Shown here: in pieces, positions 52,185-63,581 of the stretch
Layout of the letters: each line of letters begins with the position of its first letter
Numbering within the stretch: position 1 is the first letter of the stretch
Origin: Photorhabdus sp. CRCIA-P01
GTDB taxonomy: Bacteria > Pseudomonadota > Gammaproteobacteria > Enterobacterales > Enterobacteriaceae
NCBI RefSeq assembly: GCF_003545805.1
Contig: NZ_NMQR01000014.1
Span: forward strand, 1 to 64,000
Direction: 5' to 3'
Length of the DNA: 64,000 bases
Made by a program: the position numbers and the translations under genes
Notes under the pieces: model-generated
Database searches by the model: none
Told to the model about the DNA's origin: nothing
What the model saw: only the letters and a program-made list of their open reading frames with translations

Positions 52185-52607
52185 TTATTGCCAACTGACA
52201 GTAATTTCTCCGGTTTGACCTGCTATTGGCATAACGTTACCGTTTCCAACCTTTAAGGCGAAAAGGAACTGTTGTGCCGGACTTCTATTATTGAATGCGG
52301 CTGTCGACATTCTTCGCGTGCGTGATATATCTATGCAACTGCTGGTATCTCCCTGACAAAGATAAACCGATAAATTCTGAGGCCATCCAACAACGTTCCA
52401 AGTCCAAGATACATTGGTAATCTTTCCTGTTGCAGGAGGAGAACCGACAATAGGAACGTTAGCAGTTTCTAAGAAATTTTTGGAATACAGTGTGGGCAGA
52501 ACAACTGAAGAGTGATAGCTTCCACTTGCCGCAGGTACTGTTTGTGAAAATATGGCTAACAATAGTGCACTACCAATTCCTAAGATTTTTTTTAATTTCA
52601 TAGCCAT
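52185..52607 (-). CDS. Orphan FlhE-like periplasmic protein
   Basis: A 140-residue secreted protein. The signal peptide (ILGIGSALLLAIFSQTVPAA) is followed by a domain that resembles FlhE in order: a Ser-rich start (SYHSSVVLPTLYSK), ITNVSWTWNVVGWP, LSVYLCQGDTSSCIDI with the paired cysteines, QQFLFALKVGNG and a beta-rich end EITVSWQ. FlhE normally follows flhBA in the flagellar cluster and affects flagellar secretion. Here it stands alone. The ATG at 52607 is a choice; 52601 is possible. Confidence 0.6.
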   Translation of the reverse strand: MAMKLKKILGIGSALLLAIFSQTVPAASGSYHSSVVLPTLYSKNFLETANVPIVGSPPATGKITNVSWTWNVVGWPQNLSVYLCQGDTSSCIDISRTRRMSTAAFNNRSPAQQFLFALKVGNGNVMPIAGQTGEITVSWQ

Positions 52608-52904
52608 TACCCCAATATCTGATAATTTTCTATTGCGAGAGCTTAGATATACATTTTGATCTCGCACCCTTTATCTCCGAATTCTTATAAAAGCCTGTAC
52701 GCAATGCCAAAGTAGGCAGGAACAATTTGGGTGGATTATCTTCCAGATGCAATAGGCAATTTGAATTTATGTTAAGTAAATCTGATATATTTTTACTGTT
52801 CGATGCTTTTGTCTGTTACTTAGACCGTAGTCTTTTACAAGGGGATCTTCCCATGATATAAAGCTTGCTAAACGATCAAATGGAAGCCGTGACACGTTTA
52901 ATGG

Positions 52905-53660
52905 ATGTCAAAAACGATGAATAAATCAGACATGACAATCACAACTTCCCCATGTCAGGAAGCCCTGATTTACATGGAAAATATTTGTCGATCTTATCGT
53001 ATGGGGGAAAAATATTACCCAGTACTTGATAAAATATCATTCACCATTATGCGAGGACAAAGCTGCGCTATTGTCGGCGCTTCCGGTTCAGGTAAAAGTA
53101 CTCTACTCAATATTCTTGGTTTACTGGATCAACCCACTTCTGGATATTTTCAGTTTAGTGGCGTTAATATAACAAATGTTACTCCTAATGAGCGGGCGAG
53201 AATAAGAAATCAGGAAATTGGTTTCGTGTTTCAGAGTTTCAATTTACTTCCCAAAATGCAGGCGTTGGATAATGTGGCGCTGCCATTGTTATATCGTGGA
53301 TATTCTCGTTCTCTAGCTCGGCAGGAGGCGAAATACCAGCTTGAGTTGGTTGGTCTGGCTGGTCGTATTTACCATCGTCCCGCTGATCTCTCCGGGGGAC
53401 AGCGGCAACGTGTTGCTATTGCCAGGGCTTTGGTCGGTAAGCCTTCTCTGATTCTGGCGGATGAACCGACAGGCAATCTCGATAGTGCTACAGCAAGTGA
53501 TATTATGGCACTGCTGCTGTCATTGAACCGTGAGCAAGGTGTTACGCTCGTCATGGTTACACATGATGAAGTAATAGCCAAAAATATGCAGCGCTGTCTC
53601 TATGTTAATGACGGGCGGCTTTCCGAAACCGATCTGTGGCTGGATAGCCTCAATGCTTAA
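52905..53660 (+). CDS. MacB-type ABC transporter ATPase subunit
   Basis: A 251-residue ATPase of the LolD/MacB group. Walker A is GASGSGKST (near 60), the Q-loop [10 protein letters not shown], the signature [15 protein letters not shown], Walker [12 protein letters not shown], and the H-loop is in VTHDEV. It is separate from its permease, unlike MacB. It heads a four-gene exporter operon whose genes all overlap. Several ATGs are possible near the start (52905, 52917, 52932). Confidence 0.9.
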
Positions 53661-54867
53661 GGTGAATTCTAGCCGCTACGGTTTTTCCTTCGCGCAAGCC
53701 CTGCGTGAATCACTGGGTAGTCTGCGTCTGCTAGGAAGGCGCTCCTTGCTTGCTTTGCTTGGTATTGCAGTCGGATGTGCTTCCGTCATTGCACTTTTAA
53801 ACATCGGTCATAATGCTGTTAATGAAGCTATCAGCACTTTTAAAAGTATGGGCAGCAATATTTTGGTTGCTCATTTTAGTTTTATTCCAGGTGCCGTTGT
53901 CAAACCCGCGCCATCTACACTGGATACTCAGGCATTGACTCGTACAATACCGACTATCACCCATGCTGCGCCCATCACGTTACACTCAACCCGTATACGC
54001 TTCCAAGGGCAAGGGATAAATACGAATATTACCGGTACATCCTCTGATCTGGCTGCGGTGCTGGATTTACAGATTGAGCAGGGACGTTTTCTATCGGACT
54101 ATGATCGTCAAACGACCTATGCCGTGCTCGGAGCGGATATTGCCAAACAATTAAAAGTAGCCAATCAACCTATTCGAATAGGTAGTCAATTGCAAATTGG
54201 GGAATATCTGTTTGAAGTTATAGGAATTCTCGCTGTTCAGGGACCGAACCCTTTACTCCCCGGCTCGATTGATAATTCGGTCATACTGCCTATTGAAGCA
54301 ATGCGGCGGTTGCGGCCTGCGCCAGAAATTGGAAGCGTCGTTACCAGAGCACGTGACACAACAACGCTAAACAGTGACGCGGTGTCGTTACGTGACTACC
54401 TTGTCTCATTATCAAAAGGTCGTCAGGTCGAAGTTGAGATCCCGAAACAATTGCTTGATGGATTGACGCGTCAAGCAAAAACATTTTCCTATTTGCTCGC
54501 GGGCTTAGGGGGAATTTCGTTGCTGGTGGGAGGTGTGGGCGTGATGAATGTCATGCTGATGAATGTTTCGGAACGCAGGCGTGAAATTGGTGTTCGTATG
54601 GCTTTGGGAGCTCGGCCTGTTGATATTGGTATGCTGTTTATGTTGGAGGCTGCCATTCTGGCAATTGCCGGTGCAATGGTTGGTTCATTGTTGGGGGTAG
54701 CGGCGGGATACCTATTTGTAAAATTTTCGGGCTGGGTATTTACGTTATCCCTATTCTCTTTGCCTCTGGGTATCGCTAGTTCATTAGTGATTGGTCTGTT
54801 TTTCGGTATCAATCCGGCATTAGCGGCTGCCAAATTACAACCTGTAGAGGCACTGCGTGATGATTAG
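53653..54867 (+). CDS. MacB-like ABC transporter permease (FtsX family)
   Basis: The 404-residue product has one N-terminal membrane segment (LLALLGIAVGCASVIALL), a periplasmic MacB_PCD domain of about 200 residues, and three C-terminal membrane segments (about 275-298, 328-352 and 365-388). The motif RRREIGVRMALGAR lies between them. It uses a mechanotransmission mode to push substrates from the periplasm into a TolC-like duct. The ATG at 53653 overlaps the ATPase stop by 8 bp. Confidence 0.88.
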   Translation: MLKVNSSRYGFSFAQALRESLGSLRLLGRRSLLALLGIAVGCASVIALLNIGHNAVNEAISTFKSMGSNILVAHFSFIPGAVVKPAPSTLDTQALTRTIPTITHAAPITLHSTRIRFQGQGINTNITGTSSDLAAVLDLQIEQGRFLSDYDRQTTYAVLGADIAKQLKVANQPIRIGSQLQIGEYLFEVIGILAVQGPNPLLPGSIDNSVILPIEAMRRLRPAPEIGSVVTRARDTTTLNSDAVSLRDYLVSLSKGRQVEVEIPKQLLDGLTRQAKTFSYLLAGLGGISLLVGGVGVMNVMLMNVSERRREIGVRMALGARPVDIGMLFMLEAAILAIAGAMVGSLLGVAAGYLFVKFSGWVFTLSLFSLPLGIASSLVIGLFFGINPALAAAKLQPVEALRDD

Positions 54868-56338
54868 CCAAGTTTTTCAACGTGCTATTGGCATCATCAT
54901 TGCCCTGATAATAGCTGCATCTGTCAAACAAGCGTTAGCGGAGCAGTTGAATCCATCACAGGCAACCATGTCTGCAACGGATACAATTTCGCTTAATCAG
55001 CAAACTATTGGTCTGACACTCAGTGATGCAATCTATTTAGGGTTACGAAACAATCGTTCGATTCGCAGTGCTTATCTGGATCGGATTGCGCAGAAATTCG
55101 ATTTACGCGTTGCTGAAGATCGTTTTACGCCAAAATTGTTGATTAATAGCCGTTATGTCACTGCCCGTAATCAAAGCGATCGCTATCGCCAGAGCGAGAT
55201 TACACCCACATCTACGTTGCTTGGAGAATACGGTACTCGATTCAGTTTGTCTTGGACCAATCGGACGACATGGGCAGACAACGCAGGTCGTAGCCGTAAT
55301 GATGGTGTTTCATTCTCAGTTATTCAGCCCCTGTTGCGTGGTGCTGGCAAAGATGTGGCTACAGCACCTGTGCGTCTTGCTCAATTGATGGAGCAGACAA
55401 ATCGTTTGAACCTAAAAGCGACGGTATCCCAGACTATCAAGCAAGTTATTATGGCTTATCGTGAATTGTTGCGAGCTCAAGAACAATTACAAATCGCACG
55501 TGATGCTCTTGAACGTTCGCGTCAACTGCTGGAGGTTAACAAAGCTATGATTTCCGCAGGTAGAATGGCCGCTTTTGAGATTGTCCAGACGGAGGCTGAT
55601 GTTGCAATGCAGGAGTTGGCTGCGGAGGAAGCTGCTAATCAATTGGATAGGAGTCGTTTAGAATTGCTGCGATTGCTCGCTTTAGACTTACAAACTCAGA
55701 TAAAGGCTACTGACAGATTGGAAGCTAAACGCGTAGATATTAACCTGCTCCAGGCGCAACATTTGGCACAAGAGCAACAGCCATCGTATCTCACTCAATT
55801 GATTACGGCGGAGCAGGCTGCAATTAACCTGACAGTTGCCCGTAACGAACGTTTATGGGATGTCTCTTTAGTTGGTGGTGCCAGTCAGGTACGTGATCGA
55901 ACAGGGTCAAACCATTCTCGTAATTGGGAAAATTACGCCGGTGTTCAGGTAGAGATACCCATTGGCGATTTGAGTCGGCGTCAGGCGGAAGTGCGGGCGC
56001 GGGTTGATGTTCAGAACCAGGACATTCGTCTTGATGAGGCAAAACAGTCACTGGAACGTGATGTGGGTAATGCGGTACGCGATATTGGTACGCGTTGGCG
56101 TCAATATGAGATCGCACAGCGTGCCAGGGATCTATCCCTGCGCAAGCTGGAGATTGAACGTGAAAAATTGACGGTGGGCCGCTCCAGTAACTTTCAAGTC
56201 TTGAGTTTTGAAACTGATTTGCGTAATGCGGAGAATGTTCGTCTCAATGCGTTGATCACCTACTTAAATGCACAAGCGGAGTTGGACGAAACATTGGGTA
56301 CTACATTAGGGAGTTGGGACATTGCACTTAACGACTAA
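54857..56338 (+). CDS. TolC-family outer-membrane efflux protein
   Basis: The 493-residue product has a signal peptide (GIIIALIIAASVKQALA) and two outer-membrane-factor repeats with long helical hairpins and the SDAIYLGLRNNRSI and SLERDVGNAVRDIG segments. It would form the trimeric duct of a tripartite exporter. No lipobox is evident. Its start overlaps the permease stop by 11 bp. Confidence 0.88.
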   Translation: MMISQVFQRAIGIIIALIIAASVKQALAEQLNPSQATMSATDTISLNQQTIGLTLSDAIYLGLRNNRSIRSAYLDRIAQKFDLRVAEDRFTPKLLINSRYVTARNQSDRYRQSEITPTSTLLGEYGTRFSLSWTNRTTWADNAGRSRNDGVSFSVIQPLLRGAGKDVATAPVRLAQLMEQTNRLNLKATVSQTIKQVIMAYRELLRAQEQLQIARDALERSRQLLEVNKAMISAGRMAAFEIVQTEADVAMQELAAEEAANQLDRSRLELLRLLALDLQTQIKATDRLEAKRVDINLLQAQHLAQEQQPSYLTQLITAEQAAINLTVARNERLWDVSLVGGASQVRDRTGSNHSRNWENYAGVQVEIPIGDLSRRQAEVRARVDVQNQDIRLDEAKQSLERDVGNAVRDIGTRWRQYEIAQRARDLSLRKLEIEREKLTVGRSSNFQVLSFETDLRNAENVRLNALITYLNAQAELDETLGTTLGSWDIALND

Positions 56339-57608
56339 GATCAGGGGAGTTGCCCGTTTCAGGTATAAGACTGGTTGGCTCGTGACACTTGCTGTTGTAT
56401 TAGTCATTGGGGTTACCATTGCTTATGTTTTCCTCTCTTCTTCAACTGATACATCATCACCGCAACGGTGGGTGCATGTTGAACCTCAACGACTGGAAAA
56501 TCGTCTTGGGTTAGTTGGCCGTATTCAGGCTGCAACCAGTTTGACGATTGCCGCGCCATTTGATGGTGTTATTGCTGAGGTGATGGTAACCGAAGGCCAG
56601 CGCGTTAAGCGTGGGCAACCCCTGTTGAGCCTTGATACGACACAGTTGGACATTCAGTTGCGGCAGGCGCTCACGGAACTGTTGAAAGCCCAAAAAGCCG
56701 TACAAGATTTGGTGGGATGGGAGAACAGTCAGGATGTCGCTAGGGTACGTAGAGCTTTAACCAATGCTCAGTTAAGTTTGAGCGATACCGAACGTAAGCT
56801 AATCGATACCCGGGCTTTGTTCGAGCGTGGCATTGTTCCCCGTATGGAGATTGATACACTGGAGCAACAGGTCAGAGTTCAACAGCTCGATCTTGCCGCC
56901 GCTAAGGCGGAACTGAGTGTTGTCCTCGAGAAAGGCACCGGGGAGAATCGCCAGATTGCTGATATGGAATTAGCTAATGCCCAATCGCGTTATCAGGCGC
57001 TTGAGACCCAGCAAGCCCAACGTGAATTGGTTTCTCCTTTTGATGGCATTGTTATTCGCCCACAGGTATCGGAATCAGATAAGGAGTTATTTATTCAAAA
57101 GGGGACTCGTGTCACTCAGGGAACACCTCTGTTAGGGGTAATCAATTTGGAACAAATCCAGGCGGTAGCGCGTATTGAAGAGGCTGACCTTTATCAAGTG
57201 TATGAAGGAATGCCGGTTGAGATCACCGGTGATGGTTTTGCCGGGCTATCTCTACGGGGGCAAATTAAGACAATTGGTGTACAGGGGAGTTCAAAGGAGA
57301 TGCAGGGAGCGGGTGTAACCTATGATCTATTAGTGGCGATTGATCCTCTTATTCCCGAACAGCGGCAGCGTATCCGGCTGAGTATGAGTGCGAAATTGGC
57401 TATTGTCACGTATCGCAATGAGCGTGGATTGGCCGTGCCAGCCGAGGCATTACATACCGGCCCTGATGGACGAATTTTCATCACCTATCGCCGTGAATTA
57501 AACGCACAAACACAGCAGATTATGGTGACACCGGGGCATGCCGTTCCTCAAGGTGTGGAGGTGATCGGGTTAGAGGCTGGCTATGTTGAAGTTCCTGCGC
57601 GGAAGTAA
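56322..57608 (+). CDS. HlyD/MacA-like periplasmic adaptor
   Basis: The 428-residue adaptor has one N-terminal membrane anchor (about 20-37), a split lipoyl domain (TIAAPFDGVIAEVMVTEGQ, then ELVSPFDGIVI), a coiled coil between the halves (about 105-215), a beta-barrel and a membrane-proximal domain. The likely start is TTG at 56322, which overlaps the outer-membrane gene by 17 bp and has AGGGAG 8 bases upstream. It links the MacB-like permease to the TolC-like duct. Confidence 0.88.
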   Translation: MHLTTKIRGVARFRYKTGWLVTLAVVLVIGVTIAYVFLSSSTDTSSPQRWVHVEPQRLENRLGLVGRIQAATSLTIAAPFDGVIAEVMVTEGQRVKRGQPLLSLDTTQLDIQLRQALTELLKAQKAVQDLVGWENSQDVARVRRALTNAQLSLSDTERKLIDTRALFERGIVPRMEIDTLEQQVRVQQLDLAAAKAELSVVLEKGTGENRQIADMELANAQSRYQALETQQAQRELVSPFDGIVIRPQVSESDKELFIQKGTRVTQGTPLLGVINLEQIQAVARIEEADLYQVYEGMPVEITGDGFAGLSLRGQIKTIGVQGSSKEMQGAGVTYDLLVAIDPLIPEQRQRIRLSMSAKLAIVTYRNERGLAVPAEALHTGPDGRIFITYRRELNAQTQQIMVTPGHAVPQGVEVIGLEAGYVEVPARK

Positions 57609-57692
57609 CTGACTCAACCTCATTGATCTTTTGCGACACCCTCGCATTGAGCAAGAGTTCACGGTAGTTTTTTCTAATTTTGGTGCAATATC

Positions 57693-59477
57693 TCACCGTG
57701 AAAATTCGTATATTGGCAGTGCATTTGCCACAATATTTAAATTTTTCGAGTCTGCAATGACATTCGAAAATCGTGCTAAATCAGATGACACATGTTCAAT
57801 ATCATCTACTGCAACCAATTTGTTGTTATATATGAAGCGGAAATTTCCTTTATTTTGATCAATCTGTAATGTCATTATTTCGCCGACAATTGCGTGCTCC
57901 TGTATGGCATTTTTGTTCGTTAGATCTTCACGGTAACCAGAGATGATGGAAATCCCAATCGGCCACGGGCGATTGTTATGTAACAGATTGATTGCACGCA
58001 ATACAGGCTGTCTGGAGACCATATCGCGGGGATAAACTCTATGTTGTTCAAGCAATTGCTGTTCAGACAATATTGAATTTAAAATCTCTGTAAGACGTTG
58101 CTGTAAATCGATATGGATCTCCATTGGGACAATCATGGTGAAAAAGGCGGACCATTTTGAAGAATGAACAGCATCTCCCGCTTGCGCCCATCCGACTTGA
58201 AATTGAGTATCATTTGATGTGTGAGCCAAATAGATAAACCAAGCGCATATAATGTGTTGAACGAGCTCAGTTGAAATAAGGGAGTTCTGATTGAGTACTG
58301 TTTTCCATTCAGACACATGCCAATTCGGTACTTTATCTATCGTTGCCCGTAATCTAAAAGGCAGCATTGGTGTTGAAAAACGCGCTAGTCTTTTTTGCCA
58401 AAATAGCTCTTGTTCGGTAAGTCGTTCATGTATATCTGTTAGCGTCTTAATATCTGATCTTTCAATTGTGGGGAGTGGATCACCAATTTCAAGTTTGCAT
58501 TGATTGGCTAAGATGAGTGCATTTATTGGTTTGCCCCGGCTATCAACAAACGAAATACGTATATCTTCACTACTTGTGGCCATTAGCCAATGGTCCTCGT
58601 CAATACCCAACAATGTACCTGGTTTATGATCGGAACGTGTATACATCACCTGTAGTGTACCTATCGATACCAGGCGATCTCTCAGCAGAACTTTAGGTAA
58701 TGTTAGTGGATTAGGATAGTAAGCTCCGAAAGTTAAAGATCTGACCAAAGATGACAATTCCTGAGCTTTTTTATTCCACAATAGACAACCAGCAGCGTCT
58801 GGTCGGCGACGTCTCGAGAAAAAAATGCGGTTAGCAGGATCTTGCTGGCGGCGGGGTATGTCACCGTTCTCTAGGTTGTTTAATAGTTCGGTAAATCCTT
58901 CGGCAGCCGCCTGATAACATTTAAGATTCAATGAAAGTGCGGTGTCGGTATTTTTAATATCAACATGACGCCGCACAACAATATCGCCACTATCGACCAT
59001 GGATCCGATTAAATGCCAGGTAATAGCATACTGAGACTCACCGGTAAGGATCGCCCAAGAAGTGGCATGAGTGCCGGCATAGCGTGGCAGAGGTGCGTCG
59101 TGGTAGTTGAAAGCACCTCGAGAGAACTGATTGATTAATAGAGCAGGGAGAATAACGGGATTGACTATGGAAAAAAGCCAGCATATTGACTGAGTTTTGG
59201 AGAGTGTCAGGAGATCTTCTAGTGCTTCAACACAGTGTATATTTTGAGAAGTTGCCCATTCAGAAAACAGAGATTCCGTGGGAAAAATAGCCACGATTAT
59301 GTATCCGGCCGCTTGAAGTTGTTGGGTACAACGTATCGCAAGTGTTGTACCACCGATGACGACACAAGACCGATCTTCTCCAGTGGAGAGGTTTACAACT
59401 TTGCACTTTTCAATTTTTAATCTGTTATCGGTGCTATTTTTTTTCTCTTGCGTTGAAGAGGTGAATTCGCCGGGCAT
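57693..59477 (-). CDS. Formyltransferase-condensation (C-lobe) fusion protein
   Basis: The 594-residue product has an N-terminal formyltransferase domain (about 35-330) related to methionyl-tRNA formyltransferase. The triad is intact as N124 and H126 in FNYHDAPLPRYAG and D162 in MVDSGDIV. From about 350 to the end it resembles only the C-terminal lobe of an NRPS condensation domain (TEQELFWQKRLARF, then YPRDMVSRQPVLRA), with no HHxxxDG. FT domains usually sit at the start of NRPS initiation modules; here FT is on a separate protein. It is last in the operon with the NRPS and MFS genes and probably formylates the NRPS-bound aminoacyl group. Confidence 0.75.
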   Translation of the reverse strand: MPGEFTSSTQEKKNSTDNRLKIEKCKVVNLSTGEDRSCVVIGGTTLAIRCTQQLQAAGYIIVAIFPTESLFSEWATSQNIHCVEALEDLLTLSKTQSICWLFSIVNPVILPALLINQFSRGAFNYHDAPLPRYAGTHATSWAILTGESQYAITWHLIGSMVDSGDIVVRRHVDIKNTDTALSLNLKCYQAAAEGFTELLNNLENGDIPRRQQDPANRIFFSRRRRPDAAGCLLWNKKAQELSSLVRSLTFGAYYPNPLTLPKVLLRDRLVSIGTLQVMYTRSDHKPGTLLGIDEDHWLMATSSEDIRISFVDSRGKPINALILANQCKLEIGDPLPTIERSDIKTLTDIHERLTEQELFWQKRLARFSTPMLPFRLRATIDKVPNWHVSEWKTVLNQNSLISTELVQHIICAWFIYLAHTSNDTQFQVGWAQAGDAVHSSKWSAFFTMIVPMEIHIDLQQRLTEILNSILSEQQLLEQHRVYPRDMVSRQPVLRAINLLHNNRPWPIGISIISGYREDLTNKNAIQEHAIVGEIMTLQIDQNKGNFRFIYNNKLVAVDDIEHVSSDLARFSNVIADSKNLNIVANALPIYEFSR

Positions 59478-59586
59478 GTTATCCCCTTTATCATTATTGA
59501 GTGAAGGGATTTGTTTGAGAGTAAGTAAAGTTCATAGGCTTAGTTGCCTTGAACTGCATTTAAACACAAACAAACCCCGATATTGC

Positions 59587-60786
59587 TCACTGACCTTTGA
59601 TTCCTTTGTCAGGGAAGCCATAGTTGCCTGAATTCCAGACGATCAACAAAGCTAGCACTAACAGAACAAGTAAGGTCCAAGGGAACGAACTGGCGCCAAG
59701 TGTTTCAAGTAATATCCCGCCAATAATGCCCCCGGCTGCAATAGCTAAATTCCATAAGGTAACAAGAATCGACTGAGCAACGTCCGCACCTTCTCCGGCA
59801 GATTCAGCCAATGCAGTTTGAAGTAGGGCGGCGGCACCGCCGAAGGTTAACCCCCATAAGATCACGGCAAGAAAAACAAAGACAGGAAGAGTACCGATAA
59901 CACCCAGTATGAGAGAAGCGAAGGTAAATAGGGCAAGACTTATCAGCACCAACGAACGTAACATTTTGTCAATTAACAGCCCTGTCATCCATATTCCAAG
60001 CAACGACGCCATACCAAAGGCTAACAACACAAGATCAATCCTGGTAGCAAGTCCCGCCTGTGTCACAAAAGGCAATACATAGGTATAAAGAATACTGTGA
60101 GCCAGTACCCAACAAACAAGAACGCTTAATACCGGCCGTACTCCTGGAATAATGATAACTTTTTTGATCGGTATACGTTTTTCGGCGGTACGTCCTGGGT
60201 AGTCAGGGACTTTCAACATGACCCATGCGATGACGACTAATGTTAGAATAGACATCAAACCAAAAGTTGTACGCCAGCCAACAATTCCACCAATGAATGT
60301 TCCTAATGGCACGCCAAGGGAGAGTGCCAGTGGTGCCCCGACACCGGCTACAGCCAACGCACGTCCTTTTAAATGATCAGGTACCATCCGTCGGGCATAG
60401 CCGACCAACATTCCCCAGATTAAGCCGCCGGCCATACCTGAAAGAAGTCTGGCCGCAAGTGCCACTATGTAGTTAGATGTTAACGCGGTGAGCGTATTAA
60501 AGATTAACAAACCAGTAAGTGCCATCAAGAGTAATCGGCGACGGTGCCAACCTTGTGTTGCTGTCGTCAGTGGAATCGCTGCGACAAGTGAGCCAATTGC
60601 GTAGAGTGTAACGAATTGACCAGCCAATGCTTCAGAAACGGCCAAACTGTGACTTATTTGGGATAGAATGCCTGCCGGGAATGTCTCTGTGAGAAGCGCA
60701 AGGAATCCCGTCATTGCTAACGCGAGTAGAGCAACGAGAGGAAAGTGGGTACTGCCCGCATGAGTGGCAGTTTTTTCGTTAATCAT
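59587..60786 (-). CDS. MFS (DHA1) exporter
   Basis: A 399-residue major-facilitator protein with 12 predicted membrane segments and the DHA1 motif A variant QGWHRRRLLLMA after helix 2. Helix 4-5 carries GAPLALSLGVPLGTFIGG, similar to the AraJ/YdhP/NepI branch. It lies between the NRPS gene (44 bp) and the formyltransferase gene (109 bp) and likely exports the product or an intermediate. Confidence 0.85.
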   Translation of the reverse strand: MINEKTATHAGSTHFPLVALLALAMTGFLALLTETFPAGILSQISHSLAVSEALAGQFVTLYAIGSLVAAIPLTTATQGWHRRRLLLMALTGLLIFNTLTALTSNYIVALAARLLSGMAGGLIWGMLVGYARRMVPDHLKGRALAVAGVGAPLALSLGVPLGTFIGGIVGWRTTFGLMSILTLVVIAWVMLKVPDYPGRTAEKRIPIKKVIIIPGVRPVLSVLVCWVLAHSILYTYVLPFVTQAGLATRIDLVLLAFGMASLLGIWMTGLLIDKMLRSLVLISLALFTFASLILGVIGTLPVFVFLAVILWGLTFGGAAALLQTALAESAGEGADVAQSILVTLWNLAIAAGGIIGGILLETLGASSFPWTLLVLLVLALLIVWNSGNYGFPDKGIKGQ

Positions 60787-60830
60787 GGAACCCCCTTAAA
60801 TAATTTTCATTGTGTTGTTTGCAGAAGCAA

Positions 60831-63581
60831 TCAACTCAAGAATCGAGCTAATTCGTTAACACCTGACTCCTTAAGTACCTCGAAATGATCAACGTTAAGA
60901 TTGATGTTTTCTGGGGGATGTTTTAGGTATGGTGTTGCTTCTTCGATAAAAGAAACGGCATCATCACGTGCATTAAACACCGTAATTGGTGCCTTGATTA
61001 TTCGTTCTTGCAGTTCTGCCGCTGAATATTTTTGTCCGTAGGTTTGAATAACTATCCTGGCAATTCGAACAATTAACGTAGGGTCCAGGTTTGGGTAGTG
61101 CTTATGAACAAAAGAGACAAAGCTTTGCTCATCGATAACGTTAGCCAGGCATTCACTCAAAGCTGAGCTGTGAGAAGTGCCCGCGAATACAGAGAATAAT
61201 AGTGATACCAACTCACTGTTCTGATAAGTAGACCCGTTTTCTGTTCCCGTGGAATTAACGTGATATTTTATCTTCGAGAGCCCTGGCGCGATGAGAACAA
61301 CCTTTTCGACACGTTCTCCGGCTCGTTCTAATTGGTAAGCTGCTTCGAAAGCCAATACAGAGCCAAAAGAATATCCCCATAGCGTGTATGGGCCGGTAGG
61401 TTGTAATTTTTTGATTTCTGTTATGTCTTGAATCACCATTTCGGCTATGGTGGAGTATGGAACCTCTCCTTCATTAATTCCGTAAGCCTGGATGCCATAA
61501 AATGATCGATCAGTGCGGATCTGTGTAGCTAGCAAGTGTAAATTCATTGGGTATCCACCCAATCCTGGCCAGCAAAAGACAGGTAATCCAGCGTCTTTTG
61601 CCTGTAAGCAGGCCAATCGTGAAGGTAATCTGGTTACTTCACCTTCAACGATTTTTGCCAATTGTTTAACCGTTGCGGCCTCAAATAGAGTATGGAGAGG
61701 TAGCGATAACGCAAATTCTTCATTTAAACGTTGTATCAGATGGACGGCTATCAGAGAATTTCCGCCTAAAGCAAAGAAGTCATCTTCGGTAGATATGCTT
61801 TCTCGCGTTAGTACTTCTTCCCATATCTTTACGATCCGTGTTTCTGTCGAGGTGCTTGGGAGTACCTGTGGACTGTGTGGTACTGTGCTGACCAGTGCTT
61901 GCAATGTGTCGAAATCGATTTTTCCACTGGAAGTGAGAGGCATGGTATCCAGGAACAAAAATCTGTCAGGTAACATATAGTCCGGTAATGTTTTGCTAAG
62001 TTCACTCCGCAGAATTGAAGTGATGTCATACTTTGCTTGCTGGCGTATTGTTTCATCTGCTAATTCAATACAGGCGGTTAATTGTGTCGAACGGTGTTGG
62101 GGGTCTTTTTCTGCCAAAATTGCAGCGTGTTTCACTTGATCGATAACCTCTATTGCATTTTTTATTTCTTCTAATTCGACCCGCATCCCTCTCACTTTAA
62201 TTTGATTATCTTTCCGGCCAGCAAAGTGGGCATTCCCATCTTTATCCCAATAGGCCAGGTCTCCGGTTCTATAAAGCCGAATTTTTTGCGTATTGGGTGG
62301 TATCGCAATTTCAAGAAAGTGCTTTTCCGTGAGATCCTGACGATTCAGATATCCTCTTGCGACTTGAGTGCCTGCAATATAAATCTCTCCAATTTCATAT
62401 TCCGAGGCGGGCTGATAGTGATGATCGAGAATAAAAAATTCCGTATTGGATACCGGCTTACCAATAGGGACGGAATTAACTTCGTCAGATATTGGGTAGT
62501 GATTAACAAAGAAAACGGAAGCATTAATTGTACATTCCGCCGGGCCATACATATTAATCAGTAGACAGTTTGGTAGTGCATGGATACATTGAGTGGCGAG
62601 TTTTCTTGATAGGCTCTCTGCTCCGATGAATATTTGCCGAAGGGAGTGGCATTCCCGGAATTTGTGATTATCGATCAGTGCTTGTAGTAGCGTGGGAACA
62701 CACTGTAACGTGGTCACGTTGTGGCGAATAATCAGGTCAATGAGTTGGGGAATATTCCTGTGTGTTCCAGATGAACTAATAACAACCCGGCTACCACAAC
62801 TGACTGATAATATTTCCCATTGAGCTGCATCAAAGCTGATGGGCGTTTTCTGAATAATTGTTTTTTCAATGTTTAAATCGCATTTTTCATTTAACCAGCA
62901 CATTTGGTTAATGATACTGCGATGCTCAATCATTACACCTTTCGGTTTCCCTGTACTTCCAGAGGTATAAATGACATAAGCCAAGCTATCCGGGCTAAGG
63001 TAGTCATGGAGGATGTTGCAGGTAATGGCACGGGATTCTAATGATTGCTCCACGCCTTCAAGCGTTACGATGTGGATATTTTCTGCAACCAACCTGGCCA
63101 ATTTTTCCTTTAATTTTTCTTGGGTAAATATAATTTTCAGATTGCTATCGTGGATCATGTAACGAAGTCGTTCCTCTGGATAATCATGAGACAATGGCAG
63201 GTACGCACCACCAGCAAAAAGAATTCCCCAAGCTCCGATCATCTGTTCAATCGATGGTTCAACAAAGATACCGACGCAATCACCCGCTAAACATCCCAGG
63301 TTTTGCAGATAGCAGGCCAGATGCACACTGCCAATTGCCATTTCCAAATAACTGAGTCGTTCTTCACCGTGGATGATTGCTGTAGCCCAAGGAGTTGACC
63401 GGACGTGTGAAAAGAGTAATCCCGGTAGGCACTCTTTTCGTTGAAAACTCGCGGGTAACTTAATGTTATTTAACGTTGTCCAATTTTCATTTTCCGGTTG
63501 AGCGCTGGAGATATCGTATTTTCGATACTGTTCTGTTTTTAATATTTTTCGCCATTTGATTATTGGGAGAGTTGATTGCAT
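60831..63581 (-). CDS. Single-module NRPS, A-T-TE, predicted Gln-like specificity
   Basis: The 916-residue product has an adenylation domain (about 50-565: YTSGSTGKPKG near 205, YRTGDLAYW near 437, GKIDF at 553), a carrier domain with FFALGGNSL (S609 for phosphopantetheine) and a type I thioesterase with GYSFG (S738), a late FNARDDAV Asp and VDHFEVL His. There is no condensation or oxidase domain. Aligned on GrsA the pocket reads D251 A252 W255 Q293 F318 G320 M344 I352 N353 K554, close to the glutamine code DAWQFGLIDK. About 50 N-terminal residues are unassigned and may dock the partner protein. Confidence 0.88.
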   Translation of the reverse strand: MQSTLPIIKWRKILKTEQYRKYDISSAQPENENWTTLNNIKLPASFQRKECLPGLLFSHVRSTPWATAIIHGEERLSYLEMAIGSVHLACYLQNLGCLAGDCVGIFVEPSIEQMIGAWGILFAGGAYLPLSHDYPEERLRYMIHDSNLKIIFTQEKLKEKLARLVAENIHIVTLEGVEQSLESRAITCNILHDYLSPDSLAYVIYTSGSTGKPKGVMIEHRSIINQMCWLNEKCDLNIEKTIIQKTPISFDAAQWEILSVSCGSRVVISSSGTHRNIPQLIDLIIRHNVTTLQCVPTLLQALIDNHKFRECHSLRQIFIGAESLSRKLATQCIHALPNCLLINMYGPAECTINASVFFVNHYPISDEVNSVPIGKPVSNTEFFILDHHYQPASEYEIGEIYIAGTQVARGYLNRQDLTEKHFLEIAIPPNTQKIRLYRTGDLAYWDKDGNAHFAGRKDNQIKVRGMRVELEEIKNAIEVIDQVKHAAILAEKDPQHRSTQLTACIELADETIRQQAKYDITSILRSELSKTLPDYMLPDRFLFLDTMPLTSSGKIDFDTLQALVSTVPHSPQVLPSTSTETRIVKIWEEVLTRESISTEDDFFALGGNSLIAVHLIQRLNEEFALSLPLHTLFEAATVKQLAKIVEGEVTRLPSRLACLQAKDAGLPVFCWPGLGGYPMNLHLLATQIRTDRSFYGIQAYGINEGEVPYSTIAEMVIQDITEIKKLQPTGPYTLWGYSFGSVLAFEAAYQLERAGERVEKVVLIAPGLSKIKYHVNSTGTENGSTYQNSELVSLLFSVFAGTSHSSALSECLANVIDEQSFVSFVHKHYPNLDPTLIVRIARIVIQTYGQKYSAAELQERIIKAPITVFNARDDAVSFIEEATPYLKHPPENINLNVDHFEVLKESGVNELARFLS

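Follow-up and report, generated by a model that had tools for sequence, protein, structure and literature searches.

A four-gene Photorhabdus cassette as a candidate pathway to a formylated aminoglutarimide

Which small molecule could come from a one-module nonribosomal peptide synthetase (NRPS) that is encoded next to a formyltransferase (FT)? The question is raised by a locus of Photorhabdus sp. CRCIA-P01 that lies in a stretch of 64,000 nucleotides (positions 1 to 64,000 of contig NZ_NMQR01000014.1), called the window here; its source genome is G000. An initial annotation of the window described three genes: a module with adenylation (A), thiolation (T) and thioesterase (TE) domains, an exporter of the major facilitator superfamily (MFS), and an FT protein. 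The three open reading frames (ORFs), their positions on the minus strand and their domains were confirmed, as were the lack of a condensation (C) domain in the A-T-TE module and the separateness of the FT gene. On balance, we lean slightly towards reading the locus as a four-gene cassette (FT-C*, MFS, A-T-TE and LysR) for a formylated aminoglutarimide, with (S)-3-formamidopiperidine-2,6-dione as the product. The reading is suggested by gene content and by analogy with studied enzymes of the indigoidine synthetase family, which carry an oxidase (Ox) domain. Its features are listed below, with window positions unless a contig is named.

60831..63581, minus strand: A-T-TE gene, a module of the indigoidine-synthetase type without Ox, 916 aa (AMP-binding 1.7e-78, PP-binding 6.1e-15, Thioesterase 2e-20)
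61902..63434, minus strand: A domain, predicted glutamine type, residues ~50-560
61653..61838, minus strand: T (PP-binding) domain, residues 582-643, GGNSL with the phosphopantetheine serine
60834..61634, minus strand: TE domain, residues 650-916, GYSFG with serine 738, and His899
59587..60786, minus strand: predicted MFS exporter, 399 aa (MFS_1 3.2e-39)
57693..59477, minus strand: FT-C* gene, formyltransferase plus half-condensation-like domain, 594 aa (Formyl_trans_N 5.8e-14, Formyl_trans_C 1.1e-4)
58488..59390, minus strand: formyltransferase part of FT-C*, residues ~30-330, with N124, H126 and D162 kept
57762..58487, minus strand: C* part of FT-C*, residues 331-572, no HHxxxD motif
57693..57761, minus strand: 3' end of the FT gene (final 22 codons plus the stop), with DNA that is homologous to intergenic flank sequence of the cassette-less genomes G004 and G006
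57758..57759, no strand: left edge of the cassette, a break in homology with empty sites
65013/65014 on contig C46 of G000: right edge of the cassette, ~1.0 kb past the window end, at the end of the LysR gene
64134-65021 on contig C46 of G000, plus strand: LysR gene, fourth cassette member, ~550 bp past the A-T-TE start and outside the window

An indigoidine-synthetase relative and its proposed product

The A-T-TE enzyme has orthologues in two further Photorhabdus genomes (G001, 97% identity; G007, 96%). The next-best matches in the genus are frames of 1,286-1,304 residues, each of which matches in two pieces, the A part (~33-68 to 511) at 46-48% and the T-TE part (~521-916) at 45-47%, with ~400 target residues between them. 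By alignment, the stretch missing from the A-T-TE enzyme is the insert known as the Ox domain in indigoidine synthetases, and the enzyme is otherwise collinear with an indigoidine synthetase over its full length. The Ox domain is placed between A8 and A9 (PMC8949500). No Pfam model matched the Ox stretch of indC itself, and the name Ox is therefore from the literature. The distance from the A core to the TE is 139-148 residues in 7 cassette rows versus 531-553 in 22 indigoidine-type rows, for rows that have both domains on one frame; the eighth cassette row (G806) is split. As aligned, the A-T-TE enzyme is thus a relative of indigoidine synthetase (A-Ox-T-TE) with the oxidase cleanly gone.

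The substrate pocket of the A domain reads DAWQFGMIN (D251, A252, W255, Q293, F318, G320, M344, I352, N353), in line with the Gln-like product proposed in the initial annotation; K554 was seen in the alignment only. In 23 of 24 indigoidine-type rows the pocket is DAWQFGLIN or DAWQFGVIN, and the remaining row has Y for F. The cassette pocket agrees with indigoidine synthetases at 8 of the 9 computed positions, and all 13 other NRPS A domains differ. This comparison has 46 rows, in which the window sequence stands twice and L034 and L073 are one gene, and its numbering reference is a PheA fragment. We infer that the DAWQFGMIN-type pocket is a glutamine code because indigoidine synthetases use L-Gln (PMC10989907). 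Downstream, the T motif GGNSL, the TE motif GYSFG and His899 are all retained, and the TE shares 48-50% identity with its counterparts in the indigoidine synthetases of five Photorhabdus and two Streptomyces rows. A generic single-residue A-T-TE enzyme of the atromentin or furanone type was considered and rejected on the indigoidine-type pocket and TE.

How the oxidase came to be absent was followed in trees. In a tree of A domains (44 rows with the duplicate L034 excluded, 200 bootstrap trees), the eight Ox-less rows form one clade (100/99) nested in the indigoidine group, and other NRPS A domains fall outside that group (100/99). Indigoidine rows by themselves are monophyletic in 0% of the 200 bootstrap trees. 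Because the Ox-less clade nests in the indigoidine group of this tree, Ox was most likely lost.

Since Ox is missing, the A-T-TE enzyme is predicted not to make indigoidine. Relatives of indA/indB were found in none of 9 cassette stretches (8 genomes) versus 9 of 12 indigoidine-type stretches. G000 and G007, two of the three Photorhabdus carriers, have an indigoidine-type synthetase elsewhere in the genome, and in G001 no indigoidine-type gene is among the matches listed. The indigoidine promoter of P. laumondii TT01 belongs to plu2186 (PMC10983751).

What would the enzyme make instead? In IdgS, the TE offloads and cyclises T-bound L-Gln to (S)-3-aminopiperidine-2,6-dione, which Ox then dehydrogenates, and the Ox mutant R539A makes (S)-3-aminopiperidine-2,6-dione with an enantiomeric excess >99% (PMC10989907). 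What is observed is which genes are present, the lack of Ox, the residues of the pocket, and the edges and recurrence of the cassette; on this footing we infer every chemical step as follows. The A domain would activate L-glutamine and load it on T, as its pocket suggests. FT-C* would act in trans and use 10-formyltetrahydrofolate to formylate the alpha-amine, either on glutaminyl-T or, after release, on the ring. The TE would close the side-chain amide onto the thioester and so release a six-membered glutarimide, a step suggested by the TE family and by the IdgS work (PMC10989907). By comparison with IdgS, in the absence of Ox the ring would be neither dehydrogenated nor dimerised to the blue pigment. 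The resulting (S)-3-formamidopiperidine-2,6-dione (C6H8N2O3, calculated [M+H]+ 157.061) would be exported by the MFS protein and regulated by the LysR protein. It is probably small and colourless, a formyl-capped ring related to the thalidomide core. The earlier proposal of a formylated Gln-like molecule thus keeps its Gln-type pocket and its FT, and is made specific by the family of the A-T-TE enzyme and its lack of Ox, which point to an aminoglutarimide. One speculation is that formylation might shield the ring from oxidation by the indigoidine synthetase of G000 and G007, because IdgS-Ox accepts free 3-aminopiperidine-2,6-dione (PMC10989907).

Two other fates of loaded glutamine depend on the TE. 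Against the glutarimide, the TE could hydrolyse instead of cyclising, so that the same loading and formylation would give N-formyl-L-glutamine (C6H10N2O4, [M+H]+ 175.071) or something simple derived from it. A TE of the alpha/beta-hydrolase kind is able to use water, and loading and formylation require no ring; the TE is nevertheless of the indigoidine type, for which the published reaction of Gln is cyclisation (PMC10989907), and we regard hydrolysis as unlikely. Alternatively, the TE might dimerise glutaminyl units to cyclo-Gln-Gln or a linear dimer. Dimerising A-T-TE enzymes exist, with known cases that use aryl-keto acids or other TE types; with an indigoidine-type TE here, a dimer seems very improbable.

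The FT-C* protein

The FT was called stand-alone in the initial annotation. It is indeed encoded by a separate gene, 1.35 kb from the A-T-TE gene with the MFS gene between, but the protein is more than an FT and carries the C* of Photorhabdus FT starters. Its FT part has the fold and the N/H/D catalytic residues of an NRPS F domain: N124, H126 and D162 are kept, and across 15 rows N and H are invariant and D is present in at least 90%. The catalytic roles of these residues are those known for the family. Cis fusion to an initiation module, as in NRPS F domains, was not found, the FT being a gene of its own of 594 aa. A plain Fmt, ArnA or sugar formyltransferase was rejected: scores are far under every NCBIfam cut-off, and NRPS FT starters are matched over most of the length.

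The nearest relatives of the FT other than its orthologues are the N-termini of large Photorhabdus NRPS frames (~520-550 residues, 40-43%), followed by two further NRPS-frame relatives at 34%. One of them, in G007, has 16,367 aa and would suit kolossin synthetase, which is encoded by 49.1 kb as plu2670 (PMC9002308). In those large NRPSs, C* (residues ~331-572, within a C-terminal extra part of ~265 residues) follows the FT directly before A; it also opens other Photorhabdus NRPS frames with no FT before it (L097, L099). C* is about half as long as a condensation domain. The HHxxxD motif is present in 0 of 16 C* rows (some rows being fragments), and Pfam Condensation gave no match on C* at E 5. 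In one hhalign comparison with C domains there was a weak match (prob 32.6, E 4.7e-4) over 79 columns just past the HH motif, so that C* has a weak likeness to condensation domains where their C-terminal half begins. A 727-aa FT-C* frame outside a long NRPS frame was also seen in G008 (L044:6536-8719), 43% identical to the cassette FT, with masked sequence further along the locus.

FT-C* and the A-T-TE enzyme together look like a putative starter module that is cut in two and closed at once by the TE. It could be argued from the same evidence that FT-C* is a starter piece split off to work in trans for another NRPS, or that formyl-glutaminyl-T is passed downstream, in which case the A-T-TE enzyme would not be self-contained. 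FT-C* is, after all, the front end of large Photorhabdus NRPSs, and C* is weakly like half a condensation domain. However, HHxxxD is absent from all the C* rows, the TE terminates the module and the Photorhabdus cassette has no other NRPS gene, which together make this improbable.

Edges, distribution and constraint of the cassette

The A-T-TE, MFS and FT genes plausibly form a single operon, because the gaps between them are only 44 bp (A-T-TE/MFS) and 109 bp (MFS/FT); promoter-like and terminator-like patterns at the locus showed no excess over shuffled sequence in a pattern scan. The three-gene set is not chance, since its gene order is conserved in two further Photorhabdus genomes with ratios of nonsynonymous to synonymous rates (dN/dS) of 0.08-0.32 and the set recurs in a second genus. 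The MFS protein has the sugar-efflux and Cmx/CmrA families as its nearest, with scores under their cut-offs.

The cassette, with LysR as the fourth gene, is inserted sharply between two core genes. It is present in 3 of 12 Photorhabdus genomes (G000, G001, G007), at the same site next to a HlyD gene, and the MFS gene occurs in exactly these three of the 12. The insertion site was inspected in 5 of the 9 genomes without the full cassette. It is clean and empty in 3 of these 5 (G003, G004, G006), where HlyD is followed by a 151-aa gene within ~300-400 bp; in G009 and G010 other genes (L125, L126) separate HlyD from the 151-aa gene. The match with the empty site ends at 57758 and resumes at 65014 in G004 and G006, and the left match of G003 ends at 57626. 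Words like TTTAAAT...TCTGCAA stand at both edges and also at the empty site. The left edge falls inside the FT gene, whose last 22 codons are flank DNA. With the other edge at 65014, LysR (64134-65021) therefore belongs to the unit, and it is 98-100% identical among the three carriers and at most 52% to anything elsewhere in the genus. The three genes first described are real and may well be one operon, and the unit extends past the window end. The site is possibly a hot spot for insertions.

The adjacent ABC/TolC/HlyD exporter (52905-57608) was rejected as part of the pathway: HlyD is core (12 of 12 Photorhabdus genomes) and persists without the cassette. The genus-wide search covered the HlyD gene, of the three exporter genes. 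Beside them, a FlhE-like protein is encoded at 52185-52667 of the window (minus strand; Pfam E 1.7e-7, far under the NCBIfam equivalog cut-off).

The cassette recurs in a second genus (g13, probably Xenorhabdus from its family and NRPS content), where the indigoidine TE type was found at 7 places in 6 of 30 genomes. Five of these places are Ox-less (G419, G805, G806, G809, G816), and two have Ox as judged by frame length and A-TE distance. A separate FT (57-100% identical to that of G419) is present in 4 of the 30 genomes, all of them Ox-less carriers; G805 has an FT remnant only, and five more genomes have FT only as the start of longer frames (34-36%). The G809 FT has one TAA inside the match, and the ORF there is 566 aa. 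In G816, one contig carries FT, MFS and LysR close to its end, and A-T-TE is on another. MFS relatives (E 1e-60) occur in 10 of the 30 genomes and hence are not exclusive to the cassette in this genus, and LysR at four loci is 58-62% identical to the Photorhabdus cassette LysR. Across both genera, an Ox-less A-T-TE enzyme and a separate FT-C* are together in 7 genomes, with a broken A-T-TE gene in two of them and the two genes on different contigs in one, and one more genome has an FT remnant.

Several observations concern the second-genus loci themselves. The A-T-TE gene is interrupted by transposase-like ORFs, as read by eye, in G809 (L084), has lost its 5' end in G805 (L086), and is split in frame in G806 (L082), as is an AsnB-like gene there. 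One gene like asparagine synthetase B and two like EPSP synthase lie upstream of A-T-TE in G419 (L064:11769-15994) and G806 (L082:12231-17246), and one EPSP-synthase-like gene of G419 scores above the aroA cut-off; these neighbours may either add steps to the biosynthesis or be spare copies of targets that are inhibited. In G816 (L083:558-1853) and G809 (L084:14946-16250), A-T-TE adjoins a gene for a type Ic aspartate aminotransferase, whose Rv3722c-like family assignment was made from the G816 copy.

Wider draws place these two genera among many Ox-bearing relatives. The family draw gave 15 of 392 genomes with 16 places, namely 3 Ox-less (G000, G001, G419), 1 bare TE frame (G270) and 12 with Ox, where Ox was called by frame length or distance, some of the 16 places were fetched, and G007 lay outside the draw. 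The order draw gave 8 of 394 genomes, with none Ox-less by frame length except the source cassette (6 of the 7 other loci fetched), and the class draw 1 of 369, the source genome. In a contig scan of close relatives only, 1 of 3 loci was useful (G001). On plasmids, the TE was found in 42 records at E 1e-15. Among the best 40 of 753 records, the top 33 are all long enough to include Ox and the other 7 resemble ordinary NRPS matches, in a check that left out weak TE matches such as three Corynebacterium AMP-binding proteins (30%). Within the sampled genomes, therefore, Ox-less enzymes occur in two genera only, and every carrier genome has an FT-C* gene or remnant. The exception is a stub in G009, a 201-residue A-T-TE remnant (L042) on a 6.6-kb contig that has no FT-C*.

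The draws also turned up variants of the indigoidine type. Synthetases of ~1,490 aa (L067:1336-5814, L074:1611-6098) have an extra N-terminal stretch of ~200 residues that is, by eye, slightly condensation-half-domain-like. The lone TE frame of G270 (L065:7452-8234, 260 aa), with no A-T match in the 19 kb around it, is either a relic or a TE that works alone. Plasmids of Leisingera and Bradyrhizobium carry a gene annotated as arylmalonate decarboxylase directly upstream of indigoidine-type synthetases (L117:85-834, L118:736-1488), and the Leisingera plasmid has a tautomerase-family gene downstream of the synthetase.

Among the three Photorhabdus carriers the four cassette genes have dN/dS of 0.04-0.32, with 0.10-0.15 for A-T-TE and 0.28-0.32 for FT, compared with 0.21-0.30 for the core HlyD gene. 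The difference bears on a further alternative, in which A-T-TE makes free aminoglutarimide, the FT acts elsewhere or is a relic, and the Ox of the resident indigoidine synthetase converts the ring to indigoidine. The FT is less constrained than A-T-TE, IdgS-Ox takes the free ring (PMC10989907), and an indigoidine-type synthetase is also carried by G000 and G007. Yet the FT keeps its catalytic residues and has a dN/dS like that of HlyD, it co-occurs with the Ox-less A-T-TE in two genera, and G001 lacks an indigoidine-type gene among the matches listed; we consider this alternative rather unlikely.

The formylated glutarimide also has to be weighed against a number of unfavourable points. The FT is the least constrained of the four cassette genes, and cassette copies are broken in G805, G806, G809 and G009. 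In the second genus the cassette pocket, DAWQLG(L/V)CN, is two positions off the usual code, so the substrate may differ there, and with extra enzymes beside the cassette there may be a larger final product. A tree of 15 FT rows speaks neither for nor against a single origin of cassette FTs (51/79), and over its full length the Photorhabdus cassette FT is about as close to fused NRPS FTs (37-39%) as to second-genus cassette FTs (34-36%). Support for the loss of Ox comes from the A tree, in which the inner nesting branches reach only 80-88% bootstrap and for which the program gave a long-branch warning. The TE tree (33 rows) groups the Ox-less rows (79/75) and keeps the indigoidine rows on one side (60/55); its single outgroup row is very long (8.89), leaving the root unsettled and the nesting unsupported.

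Significance and comparison with known systems

No published description of the cassette was found in the literature on Photorhabdus/Xenorhabdus formyltransferases, kolossin, indigoidine and glutarimide NRPSs, with most subscription journals outside the scope of the search, which agrees with the initial annotation, where no characterised Photorhabdus pathway of this layout was named. The consulted parts of PMC4971723, PMC10983751, PMC11547657, PMC8724604, PMC8949500, PMC9002308 and PMC10989907 do not describe it. The main text of a genus-wide cluster survey (PMC9177418) has no mention of formyl, indigoidine, glutamine, glutarimide, kolossin or A-T-TE. A search with the TT01 locus tags plu2640-2644, guessed for this locus, found no papers.

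The origin of the (S)-3-aminopiperidine-2,6-dione unit in cordiarimides, julocrotine, antineoplaston A10 and padanamide B has been called elusive in a paper that later cites PadE-TE for padanamide B, and practical routes to the ring are wanted (PMC10989907). The cassette enzyme, seemingly an indigoidine synthetase stripped of its oxidase by evolution and given a formyltransferase, is a naturally Ox-free candidate enzyme for this ring. If FT-C* works as proposed, it would be, to our knowledge and within the literature searched, the first F-type formyltransferase to act in trans on a one-residue NRPS. An N-acyl aminoglutarimide is the minimal motif bound by the ubiquitin-ligase receptor cereblon (the thalidomide pharmacophore and cyclic-imide degron). 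It is a long shot that in nature the cassette is dedicated to making an N-acylated 3-aminoglutarimide, with cereblon of the insect host as its target; if so, an insect-killing bacterium would make its own cereblon ligand.

Among known systems, indigoidine synthetases (IndC, IdgS, BpsA) are like the A-T-TE enzyme in family, glutamine pocket, T and TE type. Over the shared parts, identity is 45% to the Photorhabdus and 48% to the Streptomyces lavendulae plasmid indigoidine synthetase. Unlike them, the cassette enzyme has no Ox between A8 and A9, has an FT partner and has an N-terminal extension. The engineered aminoglutarimide synthase IdgS-Ox* R539A is a functional analogue, being an A-T-TE enzyme without a working Ox (PMC10989907). 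However, it is a laboratory point mutant, whereas the cassette enzyme is naturally without the whole Ox and has a formyltransferase besides. The PadE TE of padanamide B, cited in the same paper, is another glutamine-cyclising TE, and is 21% identical to IdgS-TE there (PMC10989907).

The cassette FT shares its fold and catalytic residues with the NRPS F domains of linear gramicidin (LgrA), anabaenopeptilide and kolossin A. Such F domains have been described for three products, in every case as part of the initiation module (PMC8949500). The FT-C* arrangement is the same as in Photorhabdus NRPS starters, and differs in that FT-C* is a separate protein paired with a module that ends in a TE. In-trans FTs of the PvdF type are not known to carry C*. 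Those of pyoverdine (PvdF), malleobactin and ornibactin resemble the cassette FT in having a separate gene near NRPS genes, and they modify a monomer within the peptide (PMC8949500).
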